In this document: piece after piece, positions 2-43,543 of the stretch | Layout of the letters: the number at the start of each line of letters is the position of its first letter | How positions within the stretch are numbered: position 1 is the first letter of the stretch | NCBI GenBank assembly: GCA_003134785.1 | Contig: PLCN01000009.1 | Location: forward strand, 1-64,000 | Direction: 5' to 3' | DNA length: 64,000 nt | Origin: Spartobacteria bacterium | Lineage (GTDB): Bacteria > Verrucomicrobiota > Verrucomicrobiia > Chthoniobacterales > UBA10450 | Program-made: the position numbers and the translations under genes | Notes under the pieces: generated by a model | Database searches by the model: none | What the model was told of the DNA's origin: nothing | The model's input: the letters and a program-made list of their open reading frames with translations, nothing else

Positions 2-1366
2 GCCGCCTACAACTCTCAGTTCACCGTTGCAGCGACGGCTAACTCGAGCCTCGCGGTTTCCTACAGCAGCTCCGGAGTTTGCACTAACACTGGCGCCACT
101 TACACCATGACCAGCGGCACCGGCACGTGCACGGTCAAGTACGATCAGGCCGGCGACGCCAACTATAATGCTGCCCCGCAGGTCACGGAATCGGTGACCG
201 CATCCAAGGCTGCTACTGGAACCGGCGTTGTATCCAACAACAACCCGTCGCAAGCTGGTCAACAAGTTACTTTCACCGCCACGGTGTCCTCCGGATCTGG
301 CACCCCGACCGGCACGGTCACATTCATGGATGGGGCCGCTTCCATCGGCACAGGCACGCTGAATGGCTCCGGCATTGCCACCTTCTCCACGTCCTCGTTG
401 GCGGCAGGAGGTCATTCCATCACGGCCGGCTATGGGGCGGATAACAATTTCGCGGGCAGCACATCGTCGACGCTCACCCAGACGGTATCAGCGCCGACCC
501 CCACGCCAACGCCTACGCCTACGCCCAGCCCGATACCGACACCGTCTCCCACGCCCACCTCCACACCTACACCCACGCCGAACACGGCCCAGGCATTGAA
601 CCTGTCCACGCGGTTGCGGGTGGCGACCGGCGACAATGTCATGATTGGCGGTTTCATCATTACCGGGAACGTTGCGAAGCCGGTCGTCGTGCGCGGCCTC
701 GGGCCGTCGCTCTCGGCCTTTGGAGTCAGCAATATTCTCGCCGACCCTATGCTGGAACTACGCGGCGCCAATGGATCGTTGATCGTGCAGAACGACAACT
801 GGAAGGACAGCCAGCGAAGCCAGATCGAAGGTACGGTTTTCCAGCCTTCGGATGATCGGGAATCCGTCATCCTCGCCACATTGCCGCCAGCGGCTTACAC
901 CGCCATTCTGAGTGGCAAAGGCCAGACCAGCGGCGTCGGCTTAGTCGAGGTATATGACAATGATCAGGCGACAGATTCACAACTAGCCAATATCAGCACC
1001 CGGGGCTTCGTCGGGAGCCAGGACAATGTGATGATCGGGGGCTTTACTCTGGGCGGAAATCCGAACAATACCCACGTCGCGATCCTCGGGATAGGACCGT
1101 CGCTGAGTCTGTTTGGTTTGAGCAATGTGCTCGCCGATCCGACTCTCGAAATGCACAACGCCAATGGCTCGATCATGATTTCGAACGATGACTGGCAAAG
1201 CGACCCAGTCGCCGCCGGATTGCTGACCGCGAATGGCCTGGCGCCAACGAATTCCCACGAGTCGGGGTTATTTGTGTCGCTGCCCGTGGGTCCGTTCACG
1301 GTCGTTCTTTCCGGAAAGAACGGGGCCACCGGTATCGGCGTGATCGAGATTTACAATTTGAAATAG
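2..1366 (+). CDS. Secreted Ig-like repeat protein, 3' part only
   Basis: The reading frame is open from the first bases of the window, so this is the C-terminal ~454 residues of a larger exported protein. The first ~70 residues look like an MBG-type beta domain (pattern QAGDANYNAAPQV). A Big_3-type Ig-like domain follows (TPTGTVTFMDGAASIGTGTL), then a Thr/Pro-rich linker of about 30 residues. The end is a duplicated module with two units of ~125 residues, each reading roughly N(L/I)[16 protein letters not shown]-LADPxLE-NDxW-ESxxxxLP-TGxGxxEVY. The module is shared with the proteins at 1911-12320 and 40465-43272. Ig-like domains suggest a cell-surface or matrix role; the module's function is unknown. 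The N-terminus and signal peptide lie outside the window. It ends in TAG. Confidence 0.85.
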   Translation, partial: AAYNSQFTVAATANSSLAVSYSSSGVCTNTGATYTMTSGTGTCTVKYDQAGDANYNAAPQVTESVTASKAATGTGVVSNNNPSQAGQQVTFTATVSSGSGTPTGTVTFMDGAASIGTGTLNGSGIATFSTSSLAAGGHSITAGYGADNNFAGSTSSTLTQTVSAPTPTPTPTPTPSPIPTPSPTPTSTPTPTPNTAQALNLSTRLRVATGDNVMIGGFIITGNVAKPVVVRGLGPSLSAFGVSNILADPMLELRGANGSLIVQNDNWKDSQRSQIEGTVFQPSDDRESVILATLPPAAYTAILSGKGQTSGVGLVEVYDNDQATDSQLANISTRGFVGSQDNVMIGGFTLGGNPNNTHVAILGIGPSLSLFGLSNVLADPTLEMHNANGSIMISNDDWQSDPVAAGLLTANGLAPTNSHESGLFVSLPVGPFTVVLSGKNGATGIGVIEIYNLK

Positions 1367-1910: not shown

Positions 1911-4900
1911 ATGAAATTCAGAAGAGATTTTCGCGGAAGATCTCTCGTACTTTTTCTGGCCTCAGTCTTCTGCCTCGCCAGGGGCACTGTGCTCGCGCAG
2001 ACGTGCACGCCGCCGCCGCCAGGAATGGTCGGTTGGTGGCCGGGCGATAATAGCGCAATCGACATTCAGGGGGGCAACAATGGGACCCCGGAGAACGGCG
2101 TAACGTTTGTGCCGGGTAAAGTCGGACAGGCGTTCAGTCTTAACGGGACTGATCAAGACGTTTTGATTGGCAACCCACCGAGTCTTCAATTGCAGGACTT
2201 CACCATTGACGCGTGGGTGCAACGGGCGAGTGCCAGCGTCGTCTCGCTCAGTGAATCGGGTGGGCCAGGAGGATTGATCTTTTCCTATGGCACTGGGGGC
2301 TACGGCCTCGGCCTCTTGGATGATGGAAGCATCTTTTTGTCCAACATTGGATTTGACGGAGTGCAAACCAGCACCCTGAAGGTAGCGGACACAAACTTCC
2401 ATCATGTCGCGGTCACGAAATCAGGCACTGCAGTGACCTTCTTCCTCGACGGCGTAGCGGAGAGTTTTTCCTACACTACAACCTTTACTTTCACCACCAA
2501 TGCTTACATCGGACAGACGGGCACGAATACCTTCTATGGCCTTCTCGACGAAGTCGAAGTTTTCAATCGCGCGATTACGGCAACAGAGATTGCTAACATC
2601 TACAACGCCGGCAGCGCCGGCAAGTGCAGGTCCTGCACCCCGCCGCCAGCAAACATGGTCGGTTGGTGGCCGGGCGATGGAAATACGAATGACATTCAAA
2701 ACGGCAACAATGGCACACTGACTGGCGGAGTGAGCTTCACCTCCGCGGAGGTGAATCAGGGATTCACTTTCGATGGCACGGGCCAGGTGGCGATCCCGCC
2801 CAACGACAACCTCAACATTAATCCTTCCGGCTTCACGGCGGACTTCTGGTTCCAGGGTATTCAGAATCAGCCCTCGGAAGACGATCTTTTTGCCATTCTC
2901 GATAAATCGCATGGCACCTGCGGCGGGGCGAGTTGCGGCTGGGTTTTCCAGGGCCGTAACAGCGATCACAGCATCGCCTTCGTCGTTGGGGACGGAAGTG
3001 GAGCCTTCCCGGCCGTTAGCAATCTGCCGAGCGTGAACATTCTCGATGGAAGTTTCCATCATCTCGCCGGCACCTGGGATGGCAATGCCAACACGATCAG
3101 TTTCTACATTGACGGGATGCTGCAAGGCACAACGCCGCTCTCAACCCCGACAAACAACACCAGTGAGCTGAGCATTGGCTCGCGGGCCGGCGGGGGTCGT
3201 CCAATCATCGGCACCGTCGATGAAGTCGAAGTTTTCAACCGCGCGCTGGCTGATACCGAAATACAAGCTATCTACGCCGCAGGCTCCGCGGGCAAGTGCA
3301 AACCCGTGTGCACGGCGCCGCCGGCAGATATGGTTAGTTGGTGGCCGGGCGATGGAAACGGCCGCGACATCCAGTCTAACAACAATCTCTCGTTCGTGAA
3401 TGGCAAAGCGTTCGCGAATGGAAAGGTAGGACAGGCCTTTAGCTTTAACGGAAGCGGATTCGCCACCGCAGGCACGCCTGGCTCTCTCGCGATAACCGGC
3501 AATCAGGTCACCCTTGACGGCTGGATCAACCCTACTGCGACCGATGAGGCCATCTACTTCGGCAAGACCGCTAACGGAAACAACGACTATCTCCTGCTCT
3601 TGGATGGCGGGCAACTCTCGTCCTTCACCAAGACGAGCGGTGTTGAGACGATTATCAGGGGGTTCTCCGATTTCCCGACAGACGCGGTGCCATTTGTGCC
3701 ACCACTTGGCCAATGGACACATATCGCGCTCACCTACGACGGAGCAACGATCAAGGTCTATGCCAACGGGGCACTCGTCGGCTCGGGGACTCCTACAACG
3801 ACGGGCAATATCGACGGGGATCCATCGCCGTTCAATATCGGCGGTCGCGACGACGGTCTGGACTTCAACGGTTTGATCGACGAAGTGGAAGTCTTCAATC
3901 GCACGCTTTCCCAAGCGGAAATCACAGCGATCTACAACGCGGGCAGCGCGGGTAAGTGCAAACCTAACTTGCCACCGATAATTACGAGCTCCGCCAGCGC
4001 CACCTTTTCCATTGGCGCGCCCGGATCATTTACGGTTACGACCGATTTCGGTTATCCGGCCGGCGACACCATTACTCAATCTGGAGAGCCAGCGTGGGTT
4101 ACATTCACTGATAATGGAGATGGCACGGCGACTATTACGGGGACGCCGCCTGATGGTTCGGCGGGTCCAAACTCTTTCACGATCACTGCGAGCAACGGAG
4201 TTTCTCCCGATGCCACGCAGAACTTTACCCTCACGGTGGACGAAGCTCCTCACATCAGCAGTAGCAACACCGCGACCTTTAATGTCGGGCAGACCGGTAG
4301 CTTTAATGTCACAACCGATCACGGGATTCCGACGCCAGCTCTAAGTGAAGTAGGATCGCTGCCTACTGGAGTCACCTTCATCGATAATTCTGATGGCACA
4401 GCGACGATTTCGGGAACACCAGCGGCCGGAACCGCGGGCAGCTACTCGTTGTTCCTAACCGCCAGCAACGGGGTTCCACCGGATGATACGCAAAACTTTA
4501 CCTTGACCGTCACCGATGGACGACCACCGACTCAGACCCCGCCTTCCACCACTCTCGATTTTAACAATGCCCTCGATGCGAACCATGCCAGCGGAGATAA
4601 CCTTGTGTCCGCGTCTGATGATGAGGCCGACGGTGGGCTGGATAACACTTATGGATCTTTCGGCGCGGTTACACCTGATGTTTCGGTTGATTGGGGCGCT
4701 AACGATGCAAACCCTGGCAACAGCCTTTCCAATCACTGGCGGCTAGCCCAGTCGGCCCCCTTTCCCACTACCAGCGCCATCTACCAGGCGAACGACCCCG
4801 TCGTCGGACAAGGTCCTGGCACACAGTTCCGCACCACACCTATCACTCTCACCGCGAGTGGCGGCCGGGCCGCCCACTTCGATTCAGTTACCGTTGGCTA

Positions 4901-7900
4901 CATCACCGGCGTTGCAGGTCCAGACGTGGAGATCGATGTAGAGGTAATTGTCGATGGGACGACCTACACAACGACCGCGTTTCTGGCCAGCGGCGCGACA
5001 ACCACCATCGACCTTAGCGGCAGACCCGCGGGCAAGGTGGTTCAGTTGCAACTGTTCAATCCCAACGGCGAGGTAACTGAATTCCCGATCGACGACTTGA
5101 AGTTCTCGCAGTTCGAATGCACGCCGCCGCCCACAGGCATCGTCGCGTGGTATCCGGGTGACGGAAACGCGGACGACATTAGCGGCAACGGCAATAATGG
5201 CACGCTCCAGGGCGGCGCCACGTTTGGTTTGGGAAAAGTAGGCCAAGCTTTTAGTTTCAACGGCACTACTGCTTACGTGAGCGTGCCCGGCACGTTCGGC
5301 GGAGGTCCTGAAATGACAGTTGATGCGTGGGTAAGGACTGATGGAGTTGGAGTCACGACCGAAGACATTCAGGCGATTGTGTCTTCGACCAATTTGGAGT
5401 TTATCCACTTTCAACTGAGCAATACTTCCGGAATCCAGACCGGCTTCTTTACCGAGAATGGTTTCGTTCCCTTTACCGTTCCGGGTGAGTCGCCGATAGG
5501 TGTCTGGCGGCACATCGCAATGACGGCTAAATCGGGAGACTCGCGTCTCTATGTGGATGGAGTTCTGTTTAGTTCAAACGCCAGTACCTTTAACGCGATT
5601 ACTCCAACTTCCGATCTACGAATTGGCTCGGGCTATCAAGGAGCGAGATTCTTCGATGGGCTGATCGATGAAGTTGAAATCTTCAATCGCGCCCTCTCCG
5701 CCACGGAGGTGCAAGCCATCTATGATGCGAGCAGCGCGGGCAAGTGCAGGTCCTGCACTGCGCCGCCAGCGAATATGGTGGGTTGGTGGCCGGGTGATGG
5801 CAATGCCGTCGATATCCAGAGCGGCAACAACGGCACACTCCAAAACGGCGCGACCTTCGCGCCCGGCGAGGTCGCCCAAGCCTTTGGCTTTGATGGCGCG
5901 AGCGCGGTGGTAGAAGTGCCTAATAATGCCGCCTACGATTTCGGCAGCAGCGATTTCACGATCGACACTTGGGTAAACTTCAACGATCTCTCCGGCGCCC
6001 CTGCCTTTGTGGCGCATGACGAAGGCGGAGGGGTTACTAACAAATGGATATTCTGGCTCAATGCTCCGAATCTCCAGTTTCATATCAACGGACCGGGGGG
6101 CACGGCATTCATTGGCGTTCCCTGGTCGCCCACGACCGGTCAGTGGTATCACGTCGCGGTGACCAGAAGCGGCGGAGACACCTACAAATTCTACGTCAAC
6201 GGAAGTCAGATCGGCACTGACCAGGTCGATCCCAATGCGACAGTAGTTCCGGTAGCGAACGCGCCGCTTACGATAGGCAAAGCCGAAGGAATTCCGTCTC
6301 TTAACGGCTTGCTTGATGAGGTCGAAATCTTCAATCGCGCTCTGACTGACTCAGAAATCGCGGCGATCGCGGATGCCGCTAACGCGGGCAAGTGCAAGCC
6401 TATCGTCCAATTCAGCTCAGCGAATTATAGCGTGAGCGAAAGCGGCGGCAATGCCATTGCCACTGTTACTCGCACGGGCGACTCCGCGGGTAGCTCAACG
6501 GTTCATTATGCCACGAGCAACGGCACTGCTACTGCCGGCACCGACTACACTGCTACTTCAGGTACCCTTACGTTTGGTCCGGGAGTGATCAGCCAGGACA
6601 TCCAGGTGCCAATCTTTGATGATGGCCTCTACGAAAACGCCGAGACCTTTACCGTCACTTTGGATACGCCCTCGACGGGCACGTCTCTTGGAACGCAGGA
6701 CACAGCCACTGTTACAATCATCGAGAACGATCCGCCGCCGACGGTGCAATTCAGTGCGAGTAACTACAACGTGAATGAGGACGCCGGGACGGTAACCTTG
6801 ACCGTGACCAAGACTGGTTCCACCGCACTCAGTTGCACAGTGGACTACGCGACGAGCGATGGCACCGCGACCGCGCCGGCCGACTACACTGCGACCTCGG
6901 GCACCGTGACCTTGGCGGCCAATGAGACGAGCAAGACCTTCACCGTTCAGATCAACAACGATGGAATCTACGATGGCGACCAAACCTTTAACGTCACCTT
7001 AAGCAATCCGAGTAGTGCTACCCTTGGCTCGCCTTCCACTGCCACGGTGACCGTGATCGATAATAATGCGCTGCCGCTGGTGCAATTCAGCGCCACGAAC
7101 TACAACGTAAACGAAGGCGATGGCACCGTGACGGTGACGGTAACCAAGACCGGCAATACGGCCGTGCCTGCGGCGGTGAACTACGCGACCAGCGATGGCA
7201 CTGCAACCGCGCCTTCCGACTATACAACTACATCCGGCACTCTCACATTCGCACCGACCGAAACGTCGAAAACGTTTACCGTCCCGATTATTCAAGACAC
7301 AGTTTATGAAGGTAATGAGACCTTCACTGTGACGTTGAGCACGCCGGTCGGCGCCACCCTGGGGGCGCCTAATCCCGCGACGGTTACCATTATCGATGAT
7401 GATCCTCCGCCTGTAGTGCAGTTCAGCTCTGGCACCTACAGCGTGAGTGGAAGCGCAGGCAATGTGACGGTGACCGTGACCAAGACCGGATCTACCGCGG
7501 TCAATGCGGTGGTTCACTATGCTACGAGCAATGGGACTGCGACGGCGCCGGGAGATTACACGGCTACTTCAGGCGATCTGACCTTTGCTCCTAGCGACAC
7601 GAGCAAGAACATCACCATACCTATTGTCAACGACTCCGTGTATGACGGGAGCGAGAACTTCATTGTCACGTTGAGCGCGCCAGCGTCCGCGACGCTCGGA
7701 ACTCCGATTACTGCCACGGTAACCATTACCGATCCCAACTCGGCGCCATCCTTCTCGATTGACAATGTGTCGCACAACGAAGGTAACAGCGGAACGACCG
7801 CTTTTGTCTTCACCGTGACCAAGACGGGCACGACCGCGGTCAACGCGACGGTGGATTACGCGACGGTGGATGGGACGGCAACGGCGCCATCTGATTACAC

Positions 7901-10900
7901 GGCCATTCCGACTACCACGCTGACGTTCCTGCCTGGAGATACGACCAAGCAGATCACTGTGCTTGTGAACGGCGACACGACTTTTGAGGCAGACGAGACC
8001 TTTACCGTCCACCTCTCTGGCGCGACTAACGCGACGATCGGCACGGCCGACGGCACGGGCACGATCGTGAACGACGATGCGCCCCCTTCATTCTCGATCG
8101 ACAACGTGACGCATAACGAAGGTGATGTCGGCACAACCAACTTTGTCTTCACCGTCACGAAGACGGGCAGCACAGGGTTGAGTTCATCGGTCAACTTCAC
8201 CACTCTGGACGGCACGGCGACGATTGCGGACAACGATTATCAATCGAACACGGGCACGCTGACCTTCGGGCCAACTGATGCGACGATGCAGATCACCGTG
8301 CTGGTCAACGGCGATACCCAGGTCGAGGCAGACGAGACCTTTACCGTCCACCTCTCGGGCGCAACTAACGCCACGATCGGCACGGCCGACGGCACGGGCA
8401 CGATCGTGAATGACGATACGGATGTGACCGTCGCGGTGTCGCCACCGTCGGTATTAGAAGATGGCGGGCAAAACCTGGTCTATACCTTCACGCGCACCGG
8501 CATAACGAGCGGACCGATCACCGTCAACTTCTCGGTGGGCGGCACGGCGAGCTTCAGCAGTGACTACACGCAGAGTGGGGCGGCGTCGTTCAGTTCATCG
8601 AGCGGCAGTGTAACGTTCGGCGATGGGATCACCACGGCTACGGTGACAATCCAGCCCACGGCTGACACCATCTACGAGTCCGACGAGACCGTGATCCTGA
8701 CCGTTGGGTCTGGTAGCGGTTACAGTGCTGGGACGCCAGGAACAGCTACTGGCACCATTACGAATGACGATCCGGCACCGACCTTGAGTATCGGCGACAG
8801 GATTGCAGCAGAAGGTAGTAACCCCGGAAGCACTACTCCTTTCGTGTTCACCGTCACGATAACCGGCAATACCAATGTGCCTGTCACTGTCCAATTCGCG
8901 ACGGCGGACGGCACGACCAATCCGGCCACTGGCGGAGCGACCTGCGGCGGGAATGTTGATTACGTTACGAAGACGGGATCGCTTACCTTCCTTCCGAACG
9001 AAACGACCAAGACGATTACCATAGATGTCTGCCAGGATACGACCCCTGAGCCTAACGAGACTTTCTTCGTGGAGCTATCCAGTCCCACCGATGCCACCAT
9101 CTCGCGCGGGGAAGGCCGGGGCACGATCCAGAATGACGATGCGCCGCCACCATTGGTGCCGGTTAACACGACAGACGATCTCGATCCTACAGGCACCTGC
9201 ACCGTAACGCATTGCACTCTGCGCGAAGCCATCAATACCGCCAATCTGAGCACCAACGCTGTCTCGATTACATTCGAAATTCCGGCGGCGGATCCCGGTC
9301 TTAGACATTTCTATTACGCAGACGACCACACCGCCGGGCAAGTAACTGCAGCCAATGTGACAGAAACATCGGCCTCGGACGATACAACCATAGCAGACAT
9401 CGACCCTGACTGGCCACATAGCTGGTGGTCGATCCTTCCTACTTCCGCGCTGCCGGCCATCACCCAAACCGTCACCATCGACGGTTATTCGCAGACCGGC
9501 GCTACGGCTAATAGCACGCCTGCGGGTGACAATGCAGTCCTAAGAGTCGAACTAGATGGAGCCAGCGCGGGCGCGAGTGTGACGGGACTCACTGTTAGTT
9601 CAACCGGATCGACCGTGCGCGGTTTGGTAATCAATCGCTTCACCGGCGATGGTATGAACGTTTCCGGTGGCAATACCACGGTGACCGGGAACTTTCTTGG
9701 TTCGGACGTGAGCGGCACGCTCGACCTGGGTAATACCGGCAATGGCATATCCTGCTCCGGGTTCAGCGAATCGATCGGAGGTTCGACGGCGGCAGACATT
9801 AACCTCATCTCGGGTAATGACGGGGACGGCATTTCATTCACGGATAGCAATAGCGATCTTGTGCTGGGCAACCTGATCGGCACTGCGGCCCACGGCTTCG
9901 GTGCACTGGGTAATAGCGGAAATGGTATCACATTCTCGGGTGGCGGCTCGGTCTTCAATACCATCGGCGACACTCAGGCCGGCGACGGCAACACTATCGC
10001 GTTTAACGGCGGCGACGGTGTCCAGGTGGGCCCGACGGCTGGTTTCGCCAATACCATCCGCGGCAACTCCATCTACTCGAATGGCACCACGGCTTCGAAC
10101 CTCGGAATCGATCTTGGCCCGGACGGCGTAACACCTAATGACGCCAAGGACGCCGACAGTGGTCCGAACAATTTGCAGAACTTCCCGGTTATTACCCAGG
10201 CCTTGGTGACTGGCAGCACCAAGACGATCAAAGGAACTCTGAACTCCACACCGGGCACGACGTTCGACATCGACTTCTATGCGAACTCGACCTGCAGCAC
10301 TTCTGGAAACGGCGAAGGAAAGACTTATCTCGGCAGCCTTACCACCGACCAAACCGATGCGAACGGCGATGTCTCGTTTACCTTCCATCCGGATGTTACC
10401 CATGCGCCGGGAATGACAGTGGGCGCGGTCGTGACGGCGACAAGCACGGGCGCGGCCTCGACCTCGGAATTCTCGGCCTGCTTCACCGTGGCCGATGGTT
10501 CCTCGGGAGCAGGTGAAATTCAATTCACTTCACCGACCTACACAGTAAACGAGAACGATGGCACCGCCTCGATCACGGTTACGCGCGTGGGCGGAAGTAA
10601 CGGTGCGATCACAGCGAACTTCTCGACCAGTGACGGCACCGCGCAGGCGCCCGGCGATTACACCGCAGTTACGAATTTCCCCGTAACTTACACTGAAGGC
10701 GAGACCGGCACCAAGACAGTGACGGTGTCCATCGTCAATGATGCCATCTACGAAGGGAATGAAACGGTCAACCTGTCGTTAAGCGCCACGCAAATCACTT
10801 CGCCGGACCGGATCAACCCTATTCCGAATCAAGCGCAAGCCAATCAATCTGCTGTCCTAACCATTGTTGAAGACGATCCTGCCCCGACATTCACGATCGA

Positions 10901-12320
10901 TGATGTGAGCCACAATGAAGGCGACAGCGGCACTACTTCCTATGTCTTCACGATCACAAAGACCGGCAGCACGGCGCAAGATGCCAAAGTGGATTACGCG
11001 ACGGTCGATGGGACGGCGACCGCCCCGTCCGACTATACTGCGATCACGCCAACCACTCTTACGTTCCTTCCGGGCGATACGACGAAGCAGATCACCGTGC
11101 TGGTGAATGGCGACACGAATGTTGAGAACAACGAAACGTTCACGGTTCACCTTAGCAACGCGGTGAACGCGACCATCTCCGACGCCGACGGCACGGGCAC
11201 GATCCTGAACGATGACGTGCCAACACCGACTCCGACTCCTACGGCGACGCCCACACCTACAGTTACTCCGGCACCCACCCTCACCCCAACGCCCTCACCT
11301 ACAGTTACTCCGGCACCCACCCCCACCCCAACGCCCTCACCTACAGTTACTCCGGCACCCACCCCCACCCCAACGCCCTCACCTACAGTTACTCCAACAA
11401 CCACCCCCACCCCAACGCCCACACCTACAGTTACTCCGACAACCACACCCACCCCAACGCCCACACCTGCTGTTACTCCGACAACCACACCTACCCCGAC
11501 GCCTACTCCTACACCTACCGCTACACCGGCCCAGGCACTCAATATTTCGACCCGACTGCGGGTAGAAATTGGGGACAAGGTTATGATCGGCGGCTTCATC
11601 ATCACGGGTAGTACTTCCAAGGCGGTCGTGCTGCGCGGCATCGGCCCATCGCTCGTTGGTGCAGGTATTCCCAGCGCCACGGTCTTGAATGATCCTGTGC
11701 TGGAACTGCATGCAGCCGATGGCGCATTGATCACGTCGAACGACAACTGGAAGGACAGCCCGCAAAGGTCGCAAATCGAAGGCACCGTCTTCCAGCCCAC
11801 CGACGATCGCGAGGCCGTCATCGTGGCCACGCTCCAGGCCGGAAGCAATTATACCGCGATTCTGACCGGCAAGGACCAGACGACTGGAATAGGCCTGGTG
11901 GAAGTCTACGACAACAACCAGGCCGTAGACTCGCAACTGGCCAATATCAGCACGCGCGGATTTGTCCAAGGAGCGGATAACGTCATGATCGGCGGCTTCA
12001 TTTTGGGAGGCAACCCGGCCAACGCCACGATAGCGGTGCGAGGCATCGGACCTTCGCTGGCTGCTCTTGGCCTGAACAATGTGCTGGCTGATCCCACGCT
12101 CGAGTTGCGGAACGAGAACGGGGTGATCCTGGTCTCGAACGATGACTGGACGGACGATCCTGTGGCAGCCGGGCAATTAGCGGCCAACGGACTGGCGCTT
12201 TCGGATCCGAAAGAGTCGGGCATCTTCACTTCGCTGCCACCGGGACAGTTCACCGCGATCCTGGCCGGGAAGGACGGCGGCATCGGCATAGGATTGGTCG
12301 AAATCTATAACGTGAAGTAG
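1911..12320 (+). CDS. Giant secreted LamG / Calx-beta mosaic protein (3469 aa)
   Basis: Starts with a signal peptide (positive residues, then [14 protein letters not shown], probable cut near LAQ-T, residue ~30). Domains in order: three LamG-like concanavalin-fold domains (about 32-240, 242-465, 467-683), each opening with C-TxPPxxMVxWWPGD; two Ig/cadherin-like repeats (~685-865); a region of unknown fold (~870-1065); two more LamG domains (~1070-1280, 1282-1497); eight Calx-beta repeats (~1498-2410); a CTLREAIN-type right-handed beta-helix segment (~2415-2865); two further Calx-beta repeats (~2870-3100); a Thr/Pro stalk (~3104-3207); and the duplicated C-terminal module (~3209-3469). LamG domains usually bind glycans and Calx-beta repeats bind calcium, so a calcium-stiffened surface adhesin or polysaccharide binder is likely. 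Substrate and export route are unknown. It appears monocistronic. Confidence 0.9.
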
Positions 12321-16499: not shown

Positions 16500-19400
16500 T
16501 TAGTGCGCGGCGGCGGGGGATGGAGGCTCGGCTCCGAGAGATTTCGTCGGCTGCTTTCCCCCGTCAGCTTCGTGGTGCATGTGGCCGCTTCGAAGAAACG
16601 GCACCTTATCAAGGAAGCGTTCCTGAAAGGATTCGAGCGCAAGATAAATCACGGGCGTGATGTAGAGCGTGATCAACTGGGAGATAATGAGACCGCCTAC
16701 AATGACGAGACCTAGCGGCCGCCGTGAGGAACCATCAGCTCCATAACCTAAGGCAAGGGGCACGGCGCCCATCAAAGCAGCGAGCGTGGTCATAATGATG
16801 GGGCGGAAGCGTTCGATGCTGGCTTCGTGAATGGCGGAACGCCGGTCATAACCTTCGTCCAACCGGTGCAGCGCGAAGTCAACAATCATGATGCCATTCT
16901 TTTTCACGATGCCCATGAGGAGGAAGAGCCCAATGACCGAGTAAAGCGACAAGGTGGAGTTGAAAATCCAGAGAGTGAGCAATCCGCCTACGACGGCGGG
17001 GAAGAGGGCGGAGAGCACGGTAATAGGATGAACATAGCTCTCGTAGAGAATGCCCAGGATGACATACATGACGAAGAGCGCGGCCAGAACTAAAAACGGC
17101 AGCGCCTGGAAGAGCTGCTGGAGGACAAGTCCTTCCCCTTGAAGCTCTCCTTTCACGGTAGGAGGAAGAGTTTCGGCGGCTGTCTTCTGGATAAAAGCAG
17201 TTACATCTCCCAACGCCACACCCGGCTTGGTATCGAAGCCGAAGGTCACGCTGGTGAATTGGTTCAAATGGTTAACGGACTGGAGACCTAGCGTTGTTTC
17301 CGATTTGGTTAGTGAGCGGATTGGGATCAGGGTCGTTCCAGCGTCAGACTTCACGTAGATACGCGAGAGATCCTCGGGCGTAGCCCGCTCACGGTCGTCT
17401 ACTTCCAGGATGACCTGATATTGGTCGTCCGCTTCCTTGATCAAGTAGACGTAGTTCTGGGAGTAGGCGGAGCGGAGGAGAGTTTGGAGTTTCGTAGTAG
17501 AAACCCCGAATACGCTGGCCCGGTCCCGATCAATGTTGATGTCAACATTCGGGGTGTTGCGAAAAAGATCGGAGCGCGGGGGAGCGACGAAGCCATCATA
17601 GGAGCGAAGCTTGGCACCGAAGGCATCGGCCGCGGCATAAACTTCATCGGGGTTAATGCCGCTCAAGACATAGGAGTAGCGCCCGAAGGAACTGCCGGCT
17701 GCGCCAATATTGATTTGGAGCACGGGGGACGGATTCAAAGTAGGGAAAATGCCTGGAATATTGCTCACAGCTTTGCGCACGTCAGCCGCTACTTCTTCGA
17801 TACCCTTGCGATCCTTGGCGTCTTTCAAGAACAAGACGGTGAAGACACCTGCGGTCTGTCCGGCCCGGCCCGCGATGGTAAAATACTTATCGACGGCTTT
17901 GTTCGCCTGCAAAACCGGGTCGATGATATCCTGGAGCTGGCGCTGCTGAAGGGGCGAGGCGCCTTCCTGGACAATAAAGAACCCGCGAATGACACCGCTA
18001 TCGCCCGTAGGAAGAAGCGTAAAGGGTAACGCGCTAAAAAAGTACCAGACGCCAACGATACAAGCGATCACGATAGGTCCCGCCAGCCAGCCATGATCGA
18101 GAAACCAATCAAGCGAGCGGCCATAGGAGCGAACAACTCGATCGAAGAAGCGGCCGATGACGCGCTCGGTCCAGGTCTTGGCATGGCCTGGTCCACGCTC
18201 AGCGAGCAGACGCGCGCACATCAAAGGAGTAAGGGTGAGCGAGACGAGACCGGAGGCGAAGATAGCCACGATGATTGTGACGGAGAACTCGCGGAAGATG
18301 CGTCCCAGCAGCCCGGGCATGAAAGCGAGCGGAATGAAGACCGCGGCGAGAGACAACGTCATCGAAAGGATCGTGAACGAGATTTCGCCGGCGCTATTCA
18401 GGGTAGCTTTGTAAATCGACTCTCCATGCTCGGCCCGGCGAACCACGTTCTCGAGGAAAACGATCGCGTCATCGACGAGAAAGCCGATGGCGAGAGTCAT
18501 AGCCATCAAAGTAAGATTATTAATCGAGTAGTTAAGGGCCCACATCGCCAGGAAGGTGATCAAGAGTGAGAGAGGCAACGCGACCACCGGAATGAGTGTG
18601 TCCGTGGCCCGGCCCAGGAACATAAAGATAACGATGATGACGAGAATGAAGGCGATCACCAAAGTCGTCTGCACGTCGGAAACCGAATGCACGATAGTCT
18701 GCGAGCGGTCGAAGGTCGGGATGAGCTGGATCGATCCTGGAAGTTCCAGCCGCAATTGGGGCACGAGGTCATTGACCGACTTGGCGACGGCCACCGCGTT
18801 AGCTCCAGCTTGACGGGAAACTGCGAGCACGATGGTGGAAGCCGGCGGATTATAGCCGCGCGCAAAAAAATGCCGCGACATCCGCTCATCCTGCACACCG
18901 TCGATTACGTCGGCGACGTCGCGAAGATAAACTGGAGAGTTATCCTTGGCCCGTGCGATGATGATGTTTCGATAACCTTCCGCGTCACTAATCTGACCGT
19001 TCGGACGCAGCACGAATGATTGCGTCTTCCCGTCGAACTGGCCCGCGCCTGAATAAGAGGTGCTGGCTTTGATCGCGTTAGAGACATCGTCCAAGGTCAA
19101 ATTGCGCGATGCCAATGCGCCCGGATTGGCCTTGATCCGAATCGCGCCTTTAACGCCGTAAACGTTCACCTGCGAAACGCCTGGCAGGATGTTGATGCGC
19201 TGCTGAACTTGAGTGGTCGCGTACTTATAGAGAGCGCCGTCGGTTAGTGTAGCGCTAGTCAGCGCCAGATAAGTGACGGCCTGGTCGTTCGGATTAGTTT
19301 TAATGAACGTGGGTGGACTGGGCAGGTCGCTCGGCAGTTGCCCGGAGGCGCGTTGAATGGCCGATTGCACGTCGGTCGCAGCGGCATCGACGCTTTTCGC

Positions 19401-19835
19401 CAGCTCGAACTGAAGCGTGATCGAGGTGTTTCCTTGCGTGCTAGAGCTAGTCGATAGGGTTAGCCCGGGGATTTGCGTGAACTGTTTCTCCAGTGGGGTG
19501 GCCACCGTGTTCGCCATGGTCTGGGGATTTGCGCCGGGATATGAAACCGAGACCGAGATGACCGGGTAATCCACCGCGGGGAGGTCGTTGACCGCGAGCT
19601 GCTGGTAAGTAAGGATGCCGAAGACGATGATCGCGGTCGTCAACAGCGTCGTCATCACGGGCCGCTTGATGAACGGCTCGGAAAGACCGGAAGAAAACTG
19701 GACGAGCTTGCCCGCCAGAGTTTTTCCACCCTCGGTCTTATGGCCGTGTGCGCCTTCCTCTTGATCCGGCGCAGTCATCCCGCGCTCTCCCTCGAGTTCG
19801 CCGGATTCATCGCCTTCGTCTTGTGGTCCGGCCAT
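16500..19835 (-). CDS. RND multidrug efflux permease (MdtB/MdtC/AcrB type)
   Basis: 1111 residues, slightly longer than AcrB-like pumps because of an acidic, His-containing N-terminal extension of ~45 residues before FIKRPVMTTLLTTAIIVFG (TM1). It shows the two-fold RND layout: TM1, a large periplasmic loop with PAVDYPVISVSVSYPGANP, TM2-6 including FLVDDAIVFLENVV with the proton-relay Asp pair at about residues 455-456, then TM7 and a second loop. TM8-12 include GIVKKNGIMIVDFALHR. The substrate set cannot be read from sequence. It is the last gene of the marR-adaptor-permease operon, starting 5 bases after the adaptor stop. No outer-membrane TolC-like partner is in the window. The MdtBC-like subgroup is the closest match by eye. 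Confidence 0.92.
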   Translation of the reverse strand: MAGPQDEGDESGELEGERGMTAPDQEEGAHGHKTEGGKTLAGKLVQFSSGLSEPFIKRPVMTTLLTTAIIVFGILTYQQLAVNDLPAVDYPVISVSVSYPGANPQTMANTVATPLEKQFTQIPGLTLSTSSSTQGNTSITLQFELAKSVDAAATDVQSAIQRASGQLPSDLPSPPTFIKTNPNDQAVTYLALTSATLTDGALYKYATTQVQQRINILPGVSQVNVYGVKGAIRIKANPGALASRNLTLDDVSNAIKASTSYSGAGQFDGKTQSFVLRPNGQISDAEGYRNIIIARAKDNSPVYLRDVADVIDGVQDERMSRHFFARGYNPPASTIVLAVSRQAGANAVAVAKSVNDLVPQLRLELPGSIQLIPTFDRSQTIVHSVSDVQTTLVIAFILVIIVIFMFLGRATDTLIPVVALPLSLLITFLAMWALNYSINNLTLMAMTLAIGFLVDDAIVFLENVVRRAEHGESIYKATLNSAGEISFTILSMTLSLAAVFIPLAFMPGLLGRIFREFSVTIIVAIFASGLVSLTLTPLMCARLLAERGPGHAKTWTERVIGRFFDRVVRSYGRSLDWFLDHGWLAGPIVIACIVGVWYFFSALPFTLLPTGDSGVIRGFFIVQEGASPLQQRQLQDIIDPVLQANKAVDKYFTIAGRAGQTAGVFTVLFLKDAKDRKGIEEVAADVRKAVSNIPGIFPTLNPSPVLQINIGAAGSSFGRYSYVLSGINPDEVYAAADAFGAKLRSYDGFVAPPRSDLFRNTPNVDINIDRDRASVFGVSTTKLQTLLRSAYSQNYVYLIKEADDQYQVILEVDDRERATPEDLSRIYVKSDAGTTLIPIRSLTKSETTLGLQSVNHLNQFTSVTFGFDTKPGVALGDVTAFIQKTAAETLPPTVKGELQGEGLVLQQLFQALPFLVLAALFVMYVILGILYESYVHPITVLSALFPAVVGGLLTLWIFNSTLSLYSVIGLFLLMGIVKKNGIMIVDFALHRLDEGYDRRSAIHEASIERFRPIIMTTLAALMGAVPLALGYGADGSSRRPLGLVIVGGLIISQLITLYITPVIYLALESFQERFLDKVPFLRSGHMHHEADGGKQPTKSLGAEPPSPAAAH

Positions 19836-19840
19836 GAAGA

Positions 19841-21073
19841 TTAATTGGAAGACTTACCGGCCGCCGATCCCCCGCTCTGCCCAGGCACCTGAGCTTGTTG
19901 AACGACAACCTTAGCGCCCGGTGATAGCTGCAACTGGCCACTTACCACAACGGTTTCCTCGTCGTTTACCCCTTCGGTGATCACAGTGAGATCTTCCTGG
20001 CGCTGTCCTGGCTTCACCTCGCGCAGCTCTAACGTCGAATCCGGTTTCACGACAAAAATGTAGGGACCGTTTTGGCCGATCTGCACCGCGCCACTTGGAA
20101 CAAGTTTGGCGTTCTTAAGGATGTCGAGAATCAAACGCACGTGAACAAATTGAGAAGGCCATAGCGCATGATCCTTGTTCGGAGTAATGCCGCGTGCCTT
20201 CACCGTTCCCGAGCCCGATTGAAGCGCGGTGTCGATGAACGATAGGTCTCCTTGACGCGGCGGATATTGGTCGTCCTCCGCGTCGGTCATCACCTTGACG
20301 TTCGGGCCACCGAGATATTTTCTAACTAAGGCAAGGTCGGGCTCCGCGATGGTGAAGTCGGTATAAATCGGATCAATCCCTTGAATCGTCAGGAGGATCA
20401 CTCCACCGCCGGCGCTCCCACCTCCGACGATGTTACCCACATCCACCTGTCGCAGGCCGGCCCGGCCATCAATGGGTGAACGAATGTTGCAATAATCAAC
20501 GTTGATCTGCGCCGCGGCCACCGCGCCTTCGGCGCTTTTTACTTTGGCTTCATCGTTGTTCACCGTGCCTTGGGCCGTGTCGAGGTCCTGTGGTGACGTA
20601 ACATTTTTCGATCGGAGATCCTGCTGACGCTTGAGCGTAATTTGATCCAGCACCATTTGCGATTTCGCTTGCGCGAGCTGCCCTTGGGCCTGCTCCAGGA
20701 GCGCCTGGTAAGGGCGTGAATCTATGGTGAAAAGCAAATCGCCCTTCTTCACGTCAGCGCCATCCTGGAAATTGCGCGCGGTGATCTGGCCACTGACTTG
20801 CGCCTGCACCTGCACCGTTTCAAACGCCGCACACGTTCCGATCTCGTCGAGATAAAGTGGAACATCCCGGCTCGTCACCTTCGCCGTGCTCACGACGCGC
20901 GGAGGAGGAGGCATCGACGGTTTCGGTCTGGTGACAATAGCTCGCACGACCAGCAGGAGCACGATAAGAAGCAGCGCCCCGCCAAACAGGTAGAGGCGCC
21001 GGCGACCAAACCGGTGTTCGAGTTTTCCAACGGTTTCGCGAGTAACGACGCTCGCTTTAGCCAGGGTAGTCAT
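19841..21073 (-). CDS. RND periplasmic adaptor (MdtA/AcrA-type membrane fusion protein)
   Basis: 410 residues. A cytoplasmic N-terminus of ~27 residues precedes one membrane anchor (LYLFGGALLLIVLLLVVRAI), so it is probably anchored by this helix rather than by lipid. The split lipoyl domain is clear (VQVQAQVSGQITARNFQDGADVKKGDLLFTID ... DYCNIRSPIDGRAG) around a coiled-coil hairpin at ~115-180 (LLEQAQGQLAQAKSQM). Beta-barrel and membrane-proximal domains follow, and the end is a Ser/Gly-rich tail. It should link the inner-membrane pump at 16500-19835 to an outer-membrane channel. Its start overlaps the marR stop by 4 bases (ATGA), so the two are translationally coupled. Confidence 0.92.
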   Translation of the reverse strand: MTTLAKASVVTRETVGKLEHRFGRRRLYLFGGALLLIVLLLVVRAIVTRPKPSMPPPPRVVSTAKVTSRDVPLYLDEIGTCAAFETVQVQAQVSGQITARNFQDGADVKKGDLLFTIDSRPYQALLEQAQGQLAQAKSQMVLDQITLKRQQDLRSKNVTSPQDLDTAQGTVNNDEAKVKSAEGAVAAAQINVDYCNIRSPIDGRAGLRQVDVGNIVGGGSAGGGVILLTIQGIDPIYTDFTIAEPDLALVRKYLGGPNVKVMTDAEDDQYPPRQGDLSFIDTALQSGSGTVKARGITPNKDHALWPSQFVHVRLILDILKNAKLVPSGAVQIGQNGPYIFVVKPDSTLELREVKPGQRQEDLTVITEGVNDEETVVVSGQLQLSPGAKVVVQQAQVPGQSGGSAAGKSSN

Positions 21074-40464: not shown

Positions 40465-43272
40465 TCACTGCAGTATTTGATAGACCTCGACGAGCGCGAC
40501 ACCGGTCGAATTTCCGCTGCCGCGGACGACAGCGGTATAAGTACCCGGCGGAAGGGACTGCAAGATGGCCGGCTCTCGATCATCGCTCGGCGCGATGCCG
40601 GTCGCGATGATGTCCGCCTCCTGATTTGAGCGCCAACTATCGTTGGTGGCGAGAGTCGTGCCGGAAGAGTTATGCAATTCCAGAAATGGATCCTGCAAGG
40701 CGTTAGGCACGCCCGCTGCCGTCAATCCCGGACCGATCGACCGAACCAAAACGCGCTGGGAGGTCGAGCCGCCGAGAATAAAACCCGCGATCATCACGTT
40801 GTCCGCCGTCTCGACAAAACCGCGCGTGGAAATGTTAGCGGGATTTGCCGGAGCGTTCTGGTCGAGATCGTAAAGTTCCACCAAACCAACCCCCGTCGCT
40901 CCACCGACTCCGCTCAAGATCGCCGTGTAATTCCCCGGCTGGAGAGTCGCAACAATAGCCGACTCCTTCGGGTCGCTCGGCGGTATCGTGCTGTCGATGA
41001 TCTGCTGTTTCTGAGCGCTGTCCATCCAATCGTCATTCGTGGCTAATGCAGCACCGGTGCTGCTATCGAATAACGTGAGCGTCGGATCGCTCAACCGTCC
41101 CGGGACCGGCTGGCCGCCACTTGCGAGCGACGGTCCAATCCCACGCAGCATCACCTTTTTGGGAGTGCTGCCCGTCAGAATAAATCCGCCGATGAGGACG
41201 TTGTCGCCAACCTGCACTCGCAACCGGGTCGAAAGATTCACGAGCGCGGGCGCGGCCGGCGCCGCAATCAGTTTCAATACTTGCCCACCGCTACCCGAAG
41301 GACCGATGTTCGCGTCCGCGAGGACATATATTTCACCGTCCGCGCCCTGCCCAAATCCTTTGATGAATAATCCGAGCGGCCGCTCAACGTTGCCAATCCG
41401 CAGCTCCCGGATGATCCCCGCGCTCGGGCCATCGAGATAAAACAACCGGCCGGTCGGCGCGCCGCCTGCGCCTTCCTGCGCGATGGTGGAGAGATCGCCG
41501 AAGACGTATTTGCCGGCGAGCGAGGGGACTGCGCTGCCGTGGTAAACAAAGCCGCCCAGCACCGCTTGGCCGTCAGCATGGCTGTATTCAGCGATCGGAT
41601 TGATAAGCGAAGGATCGGGGTAGAAGTCGGGCGAGACCGTCCCGTCAGCCGGATTGAAGAGAAAGGTCCCTTCCTTCTTGTTCCAACCATAATTCTTGCC
41701 CGCCTCGACGATGTCTACTTCTTCGATGTTGTTCTGGCCGACATCGCCCACGATGAATTTATCACTGGCGGCGTCGAAACTGAAACGGAAGGGATTGCGC
41801 AATCCATAAGCGTAAATTTCCGCTACTCTGTTCGCGGGTTGAAGGGTGGCGACGAAAGGATTGGAAACAGGCACGCGGTACTTGCCATTTGCACTGGCTG
41901 CGTCCGCGCTGCCAGAAGTAAGCGCTGGATCGAGGGGATCAATGCGCAAAATTTTCCCGAGCACGGTGGTGAGATCCTGACCATTTCCCGTAGCCGGGTT
42001 GTGGCCGGGGCCGACATCGTTCGCGGCCCCACCGTCGCCGCACGAGATGTAGAGATACTGATCGCTCGGTCGGAACGCGAGCTTGCCGCCATCGTGATTG
42101 AACTCGGGGTGATCGATCCGGATGATTTCGCGGCGCGTAGCCGGATCAACCAAATCCGGGTTGGCGTCCGAAACTTTCCATTCCGCCAGGACGCTCTGGT
42201 TATCGAAGGGCGATGCGTTCGGCACGGTAAAGTCGGCGGTGCCGGCGACCGGTTCGCTCGTGTAGGTGTAGAGCTTATGGAATCCGGGGCTGCTCGAATC
42301 GGTAAAGCCCGGATGGAAGGCGAGGCCAAGTAATCCCCGTTCGTCGTAGTTCGGCATGATCGTGACGAGACGGCTCGAAACATCGAGAAACGGCGTCGCC
42401 GAAAGCTGACCATTCTTCACGATCAAGATCTGGCCGGTCTGCATCACGATGAAAAGCCGGTCGGTCCCATTGTTCGCCGACATGAGATCGTTGGGCGCGC
42501 CACTTAAGCCTGTGGCGATCGGTTGTAACTCGACGCGAATCGGCCCCTTGCCGATGCGCGGAAGCAACGGTGTAGGTGATGGCGTCGGCGTTGGTGTCGA
42601 TGTCGGGCCTGCGAGTGAGGCGGAAGCTCCGGAATTGTTCGTGACCGTGGCGGCGCCGACGGTCACCGTGTAATCTGCCGCATTATTTGTGCTGGGAGCG
42701 GAGGCCGGGCCACTGAAGCGAAGCGCGGAAGTTGAAGTCGAAGGCAACGCCCCGGCGAACGGTGGGCCGAAGTTGCCGTCCGCGTCGTTGTCGAACGTGC
42801 CCATGTTTGGTCCGGTGTAGCTCGTGCCGCCCCAGCTCACCGACCAGAGAATACCGCCGTGTTCATAAGCCAGCCGGCCGGCAGCCAGATAGCTCGCAGG
42901 CATTGCGGTCATCGTAAAATCGGATGCGATCGGCGAAGTCTCATGACTCGCGAAACTCGCGGTCGTAATCAAAATCCGAGTGCCGGCCGCATCGTTGCTC
43001 ACATTGGAAGGGAATGTGAGGAGAGTGATTGGATTATTCCCCGAGGCGTCGAAGGCAACGAGCGTTCCAGTAGAAACAAAATTTTCCCCCGTGGCACGCA
43101 TCCGCAACTGCACAGCTTGCGCGGTGGTGTCGCCGTTGACGCCGCCGATTACCTGCTCGATTTGGTTCAGGTGAAACGAGGCGTGGAGCGGAACCGCGCA
43201 AGCGAATGAAACTAGCGCAGCAAGGATCCGCAGTCGACGCGTGCGCGCATTAGAAGACCGGCGTATTTTCAT
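40465..43272 (-). CDS. Secreted PQQ-type sugar dehydrogenase with duplicated C-terminal module
   Basis: 935 residues from ATG 43270-43272 (MKIRRSSNARTRRLRILAAL, signal peptide cut near LHA-SFH). Three parts are visible. Residues ~33-235 are an unnamed beta domain beginning SFHLNQIEQVIGGVNGD. A short Thr/Pro linker follows. Residues ~250-675 are a six-bladed glucose/sorbosone-dehydrogenase propeller (RGLLGLAFHPGF, EFNHDGGKLAFRP, YISCGDGGAANDVG, GKILRIDPLDP, YGLRNPFRFSF, GDVGQNNIEEVDI). Residues ~680-935 are the duplicated module also found at 2-1366 and 1911-12320. Propellers of this family oxidise aldoses with PQQ and calcium in the periplasm or outside the cell. The sugar is unknown, and PQQ synthesis genes are not nearby. 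Confidence 0.88.
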   Translation of the reverse strand: MKIRRSSNARTRRLRILAALVSFACAVPLHASFHLNQIEQVIGGVNGDTTAQAVQLRMRATGENFVSTGTLVAFDASGNNPITLLTFPSNVSNDAAGTRILITTASFASHETSPIASDFTMTAMPASYLAAGRLAYEHGGILWSVSWGGTSYTGPNMGTFDNDADGNFGPPFAGALPSTSTSALRFSGPASAPSTNNAADYTVTVGAATVTNNSGASASLAGPTSTPTPTPSPTPLLPRIGKGPIRVELQPIATGLSGAPNDLMSANNGTDRLFIVMQTGQILIVKNGQLSATPFLDVSSRLVTIMPNYDERGLLGLAFHPGFTDSSSPGFHKLYTYTSEPVAGTADFTVPNASPFDNQSVLAEWKVSDANPDLVDPATRREIIRIDHPEFNHDGGKLAFRPSDQYLYISCGDGGAANDVGPGHNPATGNGQDLTTVLGKILRIDPLDPALTSGSADAASANGKYRVPVSNPFVATLQPANRVAEIYAYGLRNPFRFSFDAASDKFIVGDVGQNNIEEVDIVEAGKNYGWNKKEGTFLFNPADGTVSPDFYPDPSLINPIAEYSHADGQAVLGGFVYHGSAVPSLAGKYVFGDLSTIAQEGAGGAPTGRLFYLDGPSAGIIRELRIGNVERPLGLFIKGFGQGADGEIYVLADANIGPSGSGGQVLKLIAAPAAPALVNLSTRLRVQVGDNVLIGGFILTGSTPKKVMLRGIGPSLASGGQPVPGRLSDPTLTLFDSSTGAALATNDDWMDSAQKQQIIDSTIPPSDPKESAIVATLQPGNYTAILSGVGGATGVGLVELYDLDQNAPANPANISTRGFVETADNVMIAGFILGGSTSQRVLVRSIGPGLTAAGVPNALQDPFLELHNSSGTTLATNDSWRSNQEADIIATGIAPSDDREPAILQSLPPGTYTAVVRGSGNSTGVALVEVYQILQ

Positions 43273-43543
43273 AGCGTAAACCTCAATGAATCTGCATACA
43301 TCTCGGCGCGCTTGGGGGCGAGCCCGAACCCACGAGTTGATGTTACAAATCGCCAATTAGGTGGCGAGATATGAAAGGTAACGGAGTTGTTACTTTCTCT
43401 GCCGTCGGGTTTAGTCAACCGGTCTGGAGATCGCTCCGCCGCGTTAACAAAATCGCTGGGCCTGGGCGCCTCGGGTTTGCCGCGCGAAACCTCTTGAAAC
43501 GCTTCCTAGTCACCCCGCGCAATCTTTGTTAGTTAAGCCCGTC

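Follow-up and report, generated by a model that had tools for sequence, protein, structure and literature searches.

Results

The window, i.e., the whole stretch of 64,000 nucleotides from a Spartobacteria bacterium analysed here, encodes three exported proteins with homologous C-terminal modules (Table 1). An ORF check bore out the ends at 1366 and 12320 on the plus strand and at 40465 on the minus strand that a sequence-only reading had given. Alignment showed that in all three proteins the C-terminus consists of two units of ~125 residues with the motif described there, in the following called the doublet. The last ~250 residues are indeed homologous but not "the same", as had been stated, with a pairwise identity of about 50–70% between modules. 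Chance likeness is excluded because one module retrieves the rest of those in the genome at E values down to 1e-120. The N-terminal parts are unrelated, as proposed; profile search assigned Big_3_5 to protein 1, Laminin_G_3 and Calx-beta to protein 2 and GSDH (PQQ glucose/sorbosone dehydrogenase) to protein 3. A Thr/Pro stalk directly precedes the doublet in proteins 1 and 2, also in agreement with the earlier reading, whereas protein 3 has a short Ala/Pro linker without such a stalk. The N-termini of proteins 2 and 3 look signal-like; that of protein 1 is missing, since the window starts at base 1 of its contig (C12). Elsewhere, the window holds an ordinary AcrB-type RND efflux pump with a HlyD-type adaptor (16500–21073, minus strand).

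Table 1. Doublet-carrying proteins of the window and their parts
Feature	Position	Strand	Remarks
Exported protein 1	2..1366	+	Big_3_5 Ig-like (about 230-490), Thr/Pro stalk, C-terminal doublet
Protein 1, Thr/Pro-rich stalk	491..592	+	
Protein 1, doublet unit a	593..961	+	boundary approximate
Protein 1, doublet unit b	983..1363	+	single-unit model pLDDT 95.2
Exported protein 2	1911..12320	+	3469 aa; signal-like N-terminus, LamG, Calx-beta, CSLREA, stalk, doublet
Protein 2, Thr/Pro-rich stalk	11217..11534	+	
Protein 2, doublet unit a	11535..11912	+	
Protein 2, doublet unit b	11937..12317	+	
Exported protein 3	40465..43356	-	GSDH-type PQQ dehydrogenase domain (about 41308-42462), then doublet
Protein 3, likely start ATG	43272	-	signal peptide next
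Protein 3, doublet unit a	40864..41247	-	
Protein 3, doublet unit b	40468..40842	-	NF038127 match 45.5 bits, residues 837-950

A single-module query gave 176 matches in the own 4.4 Mb genome of the organism, a soil member of the Chthoniobacterales. With an iterated HMM, 240 units in 128 ORFs were found in stretches of this genome. After collapsing identical tails we counted 107 two-unit proteins, one four-unit protein and 18 single or fragmentary cases, and since these counts were taken from stretches of the genome, they are lower bounds (at least 107 doublet proteins). When the own genome and its relatives were pooled, exactly two units were present in 201 of 217 complete module ORFs; of these 201, 193 stopped no more than 6 residues from the profile end. 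A second, independent set of proteins from relatives agreed, with two units in 121 of 125. Between the last beta-strand and the stop codon lie 1–4 aa. The module had been expected mainly at the C-termini of signal-peptide proteins in Verrucomicrobia, and in the profile search of genomes, the matches lay mainly in Verrucomicrobiota and, with rare exceptions, at the very C-terminus of exported proteins.

About 4% of the doublets are not C-terminal. Intact doublets follow right behind the signal peptide in a DUF1800-like (L096) and a lipase-like protein (L146), and another lies mid-protein (L074). An apparent ORF of 292 aa (L046) comprises a signal-like start and a doublet and nothing else. In one protein (L044:3024-6023), unit b contains a ~150-residue insertion ahead of its last strand, which still forms the protein end. 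Two further ORFs (L076:1101-2864 and L121:1326-3158) have one unit after the signal peptide and then a collagen-like GxT repeat; downstream of it, a sulfatase-modifying-factor-like domain was recognized by eye in L076. At L077–L079 (own genome, C2:1-60000), more than 12 module genes are densely arrayed on one strand, several of which encode Thr/Pro stalks as well as choice-of-anchor Q domains.

Signal-peptide-like starts were seen in 174 of 198 module proteins (88%) versus 156 of 326 other ORFs of the same loci (48%; odds ratio 7.9), as judged by a crude home-made heuristic and against neighbours that are themselves often exported. The cargo includes Kelch, DUF5122/delta-60, NHL, SBBP, GSDH, subtilase and Ig-like types as well as NCBI "choice-of-anchor" families, a name that we take to mean domains occurring with alternative C-terminal anchors. 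Domain counts were choice_anch_Q 11/79, GloVer 3/79 and Peptidase_S8 2/79; beta-propeller and Ig/Calx-type proteins prevail, and polymer hydrolases are not the main class. Among the module-rich genera that were examined, a choice_anch_Q protein without a terminal doublet is a rarity: we saw one in the own genome, with relatives of it in G013, and one each in G027 and G029.

At about a dozen loci, a gene for an ECF-type sigma factor adjoins the module gene, usually in divergent orientation; the gaps are often below 600 bases, and in many cases a Ser/Thr kinase gene comes after the sigma factor gene. Loci with the sigma factor gene, with or without the kinase gene, include L058, L062, L063, L045, L074, L149, L151, L167 and L138. 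This recurring arrangement of sigma factor, kinase and module genes might serve to regulate the exported proteins.

AF2 models of the doublet (pLDDT 92.6) and of a single unit (95.2) are confident beta-sandwiches. The single-unit model resembled the Tk-SP C-terminal domain (VIA Z 10.7, 96 aligned, rmsd 3.0), ColG (Z 9.6, 91 aligned, rmsd 2.4), a Bacillus collagenase PPC domain (Z 9.0, 93 aligned, rmsd 2.6) and ColH (Z 8.9). Other beta-sandwiches, i.e., GOLD, a calpain domain, PliG and the clostridial enterotoxin C-terminal domain, reached Z 8–9. As modelled, the module fold is hence a PPC-like beta-sandwich, an assignment of fold class and not of function, given the near-equal scores of unrelated proteins. 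A whole-doublet Foldseek match to PRD1 P3 was dismissed as mere double-barrel resemblance with low TM.

On the sequence level, the NCBIfam model NF038127 (DVUA0089 family, FDP_fam) matched 48 of 68 copies at E <= 0.01 (best 2.5e-16); at its curated cut-off of 29 bits, protein 3 of the window scored above (45.5) and proteins 1 and 2 were without match. Pfam PPC (PF04151) gave weak matches in 4 of 68 copies (best E 6.4e-4); no module reached its gathering cut-off of 25.9 bits, and the three window proteins did not match it. Comparing the module profile by hhalign with seven weak PPC sequences, a small and underpowered set, was negative with a probability of 3.8. Searching PDB sequences with the single-unit profile returned nothing significant; hits to Kelch designs in a separate PDB sequence search were set aside as apparent low-complexity overlap. 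The earlier statement that the module has no named function holds insofar as none was found, but a function-unknown NCBIfam model already covers many copies.

Modules of up to 96% identity were found on unrelated N-terminal parts. DNA similarity between such pairs (78–96%) sets in where the module or its stalk begins; in most pairs it stops at or shortly past the stop codon. For example, L053 and L054 share 95.7% DNA identity from 6 bases upstream of the module to ~50 bases past the stop, and the sequences immediately before this stretch are not similar. In L045/L055, similarity continues for ~150 bases beyond the stop. The module and its DNA boundaries thus constitute a 3' cassette that is shuffled between genes. 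In a tree of 448 units, 92% sorted into a-units and b-units, and between-protein identities were higher for a-a (0.56) and b-b (0.55) than for a-b pairs (0.52), which indicates an old doublet whose units have mostly spread together. The C-terminal bias may in part be a product of this movement, because a 3' end is where a copy is most easily added.

The module was abundant in 8 of 8 genomes of the genus, and other genera of the same family had from 0 to >100 matches. Our taxonomic sampling covered Verrucomicrobiota and Acidobacteriota. Of 289 genomes sampled from the phylum Verrucomicrobiota, 14 carried it, belonging to three families (f1, f4, f16), and the closest relatives in a contig scan were soil Spartobacteria/Chthoniobacterales MAGs. 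Two of 297 Acidobacteriota genomes had the module. One is probably a mis-binned MAG, considering its small contigs and a sampling project shared with Spartobacteria; the other (G381, 6 Mb) encodes one doublet protein (C1:5803542-5804276, L226), likely acquired laterally. Plasmid and phage collections contained no module match.

Discussion

Like PPC domains, the collagen-binding domains of ColG and ColH and the Tk-SP domain, the module is a predicted beta-sandwich at the C-terminus of exported proteins, and tandem PPC pairs are known from ColG (s3a-s3b) and FibA. In contrast, the PPC model spans 70 positions and the module unit ~125 aa, and the module motifs (N-STR, GPSL, DPTLEL, NDNW) differ from those of PPC. 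Sequence matches to NF038127 are common, whereas here we find near-obligate doublets that tail very many cargos. Judging from sequence and models, the doublet appears to be a new, massively expanded PPC/DVUA0089-type form limited to a few Verrucomicrobiota families. Full-text searching of the open-access literature found no paper that describes it.

We see about an even chance that the doublet is a non-covalent tail retaining its cargo at the cell surface or in the matrix. The cargo would leave the cytoplasm via its Sec-type signal peptide and presumably cross the outer membrane, and the folded doublet would remain outside, holding the cargo, sometimes on a Thr/Pro stalk. The two units might function as a pair that binds non-covalently to a partner common to all cargo, for example, a surface polysaccharide. 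New cargo would acquire the tail by copying of the 3' cassette onto another gene. In Myxococcus, the extracellular matrix contains FibA, which has two C-terminal PPC domains; the fragment of FibA that contains PPC is Protein C of the spore cuticula (PMC3236237). DVUA0089, the namesake of the NCBIfam model, belongs to an exopolysaccharide/biofilm regulon (PMC4641369). By analogy, both precedents support a matrix association without proving it. Retention by the doublet cannot be essential to the family, as complete same-family relatives lack the module and copy numbers are patchy.

The near-invariant terminal position, the exact number of two units and the many unrelated exported cargos with their choice-of-anchor domains could also speak for a C-terminal sorting signal that addresses a dedicated outer-membrane secretion or attachment machine, as would the last strand that ends the L044 protein despite the large insertion in unit b. 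Sorting had been suggested from the terminal position, and known sorting domains of the type IX CTD or PEP-CTERM kind had been named for comparison. Type IX CTDs are conserved C-terminal beta domains on unrelated exported cargo, too, but they are single short domains and not doublets, and the doublet here has rare non-C-terminal copies. These intact copies behind the signal peptide or mid-protein weaken the suggestion and disfavour an obligate C-terminal secretion signal. The own genome (G000) had no match to the type IX CTD profile (PF18962; a Bacteroides control matched weakly), and the module instead has a PPC/collagen-binding fold. SprA (PF14349) was undetected in all 39 genomes searched, with the control genomes likewise blank. 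A GspD-type secretin matched nearly over its full length, under the cut-off, in the own genome, and matches, none above the curated cut-off, occurred in 39 of 39 relatives with and without the module, so that the secretin does not discriminate. No conserved cleavage motif, processing site or linker was seen before the doublet, nor a conserved companion gene near the loci except the ECF sigma factor and kinase genes. We rate a sorting signal acting like a type IX CTD as unlikely. Equally doubtful would be the view that Chthoniobacterales and their relatives have an undescribed surface-display or secretion system whose own outer-membrane receptor recognizes the tail on >100 cargos per genome. 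PEP-CTERM, also a common tail of many exported proteins, fills the same "choice of anchor" slot. Its profile (PF07589) was unmatched in the own genome, although an exosortase gene is present, and the module proteins showed no PEP motif, transmembrane helix or basic tail. A replacement of PEP-CTERM by the module was rejected as a trend alone (Spearman -0.31, p 0.10, relatedness uncorrected).

The PPC-like fold might further be read as a stabilizing, propeptide-like domain that aids folding or export of the cargo and is later proteolysed off. This is distinctly improbable, as proteases are rare among the cargo (Peptidase_S8), no conserved linker or processing site was seen and the apparent L046 ORF consists of signal-like start and doublet alone. 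Least probable to us is a CBM-like module for environmental polymers instead of the own cell: the fold is common to collagen-binding domains, but the cargo is chiefly of beta-propeller and Ig/Calx type, and the motif set is uniform across >100 paralogues in one genome, which rather suggests one common partner.

Soil Chthoniobacterales are mostly uncultivated, and a tail on >100 exported proteins offers a handle on their surface. The tail marks otherwise anonymous proteins as a single exported class and exemplifies domain shuffling through 3'-cassette copying at an unusual scale. It also raises an experimental question, namely, what the binding partner of such paired PPC-like domains might be.
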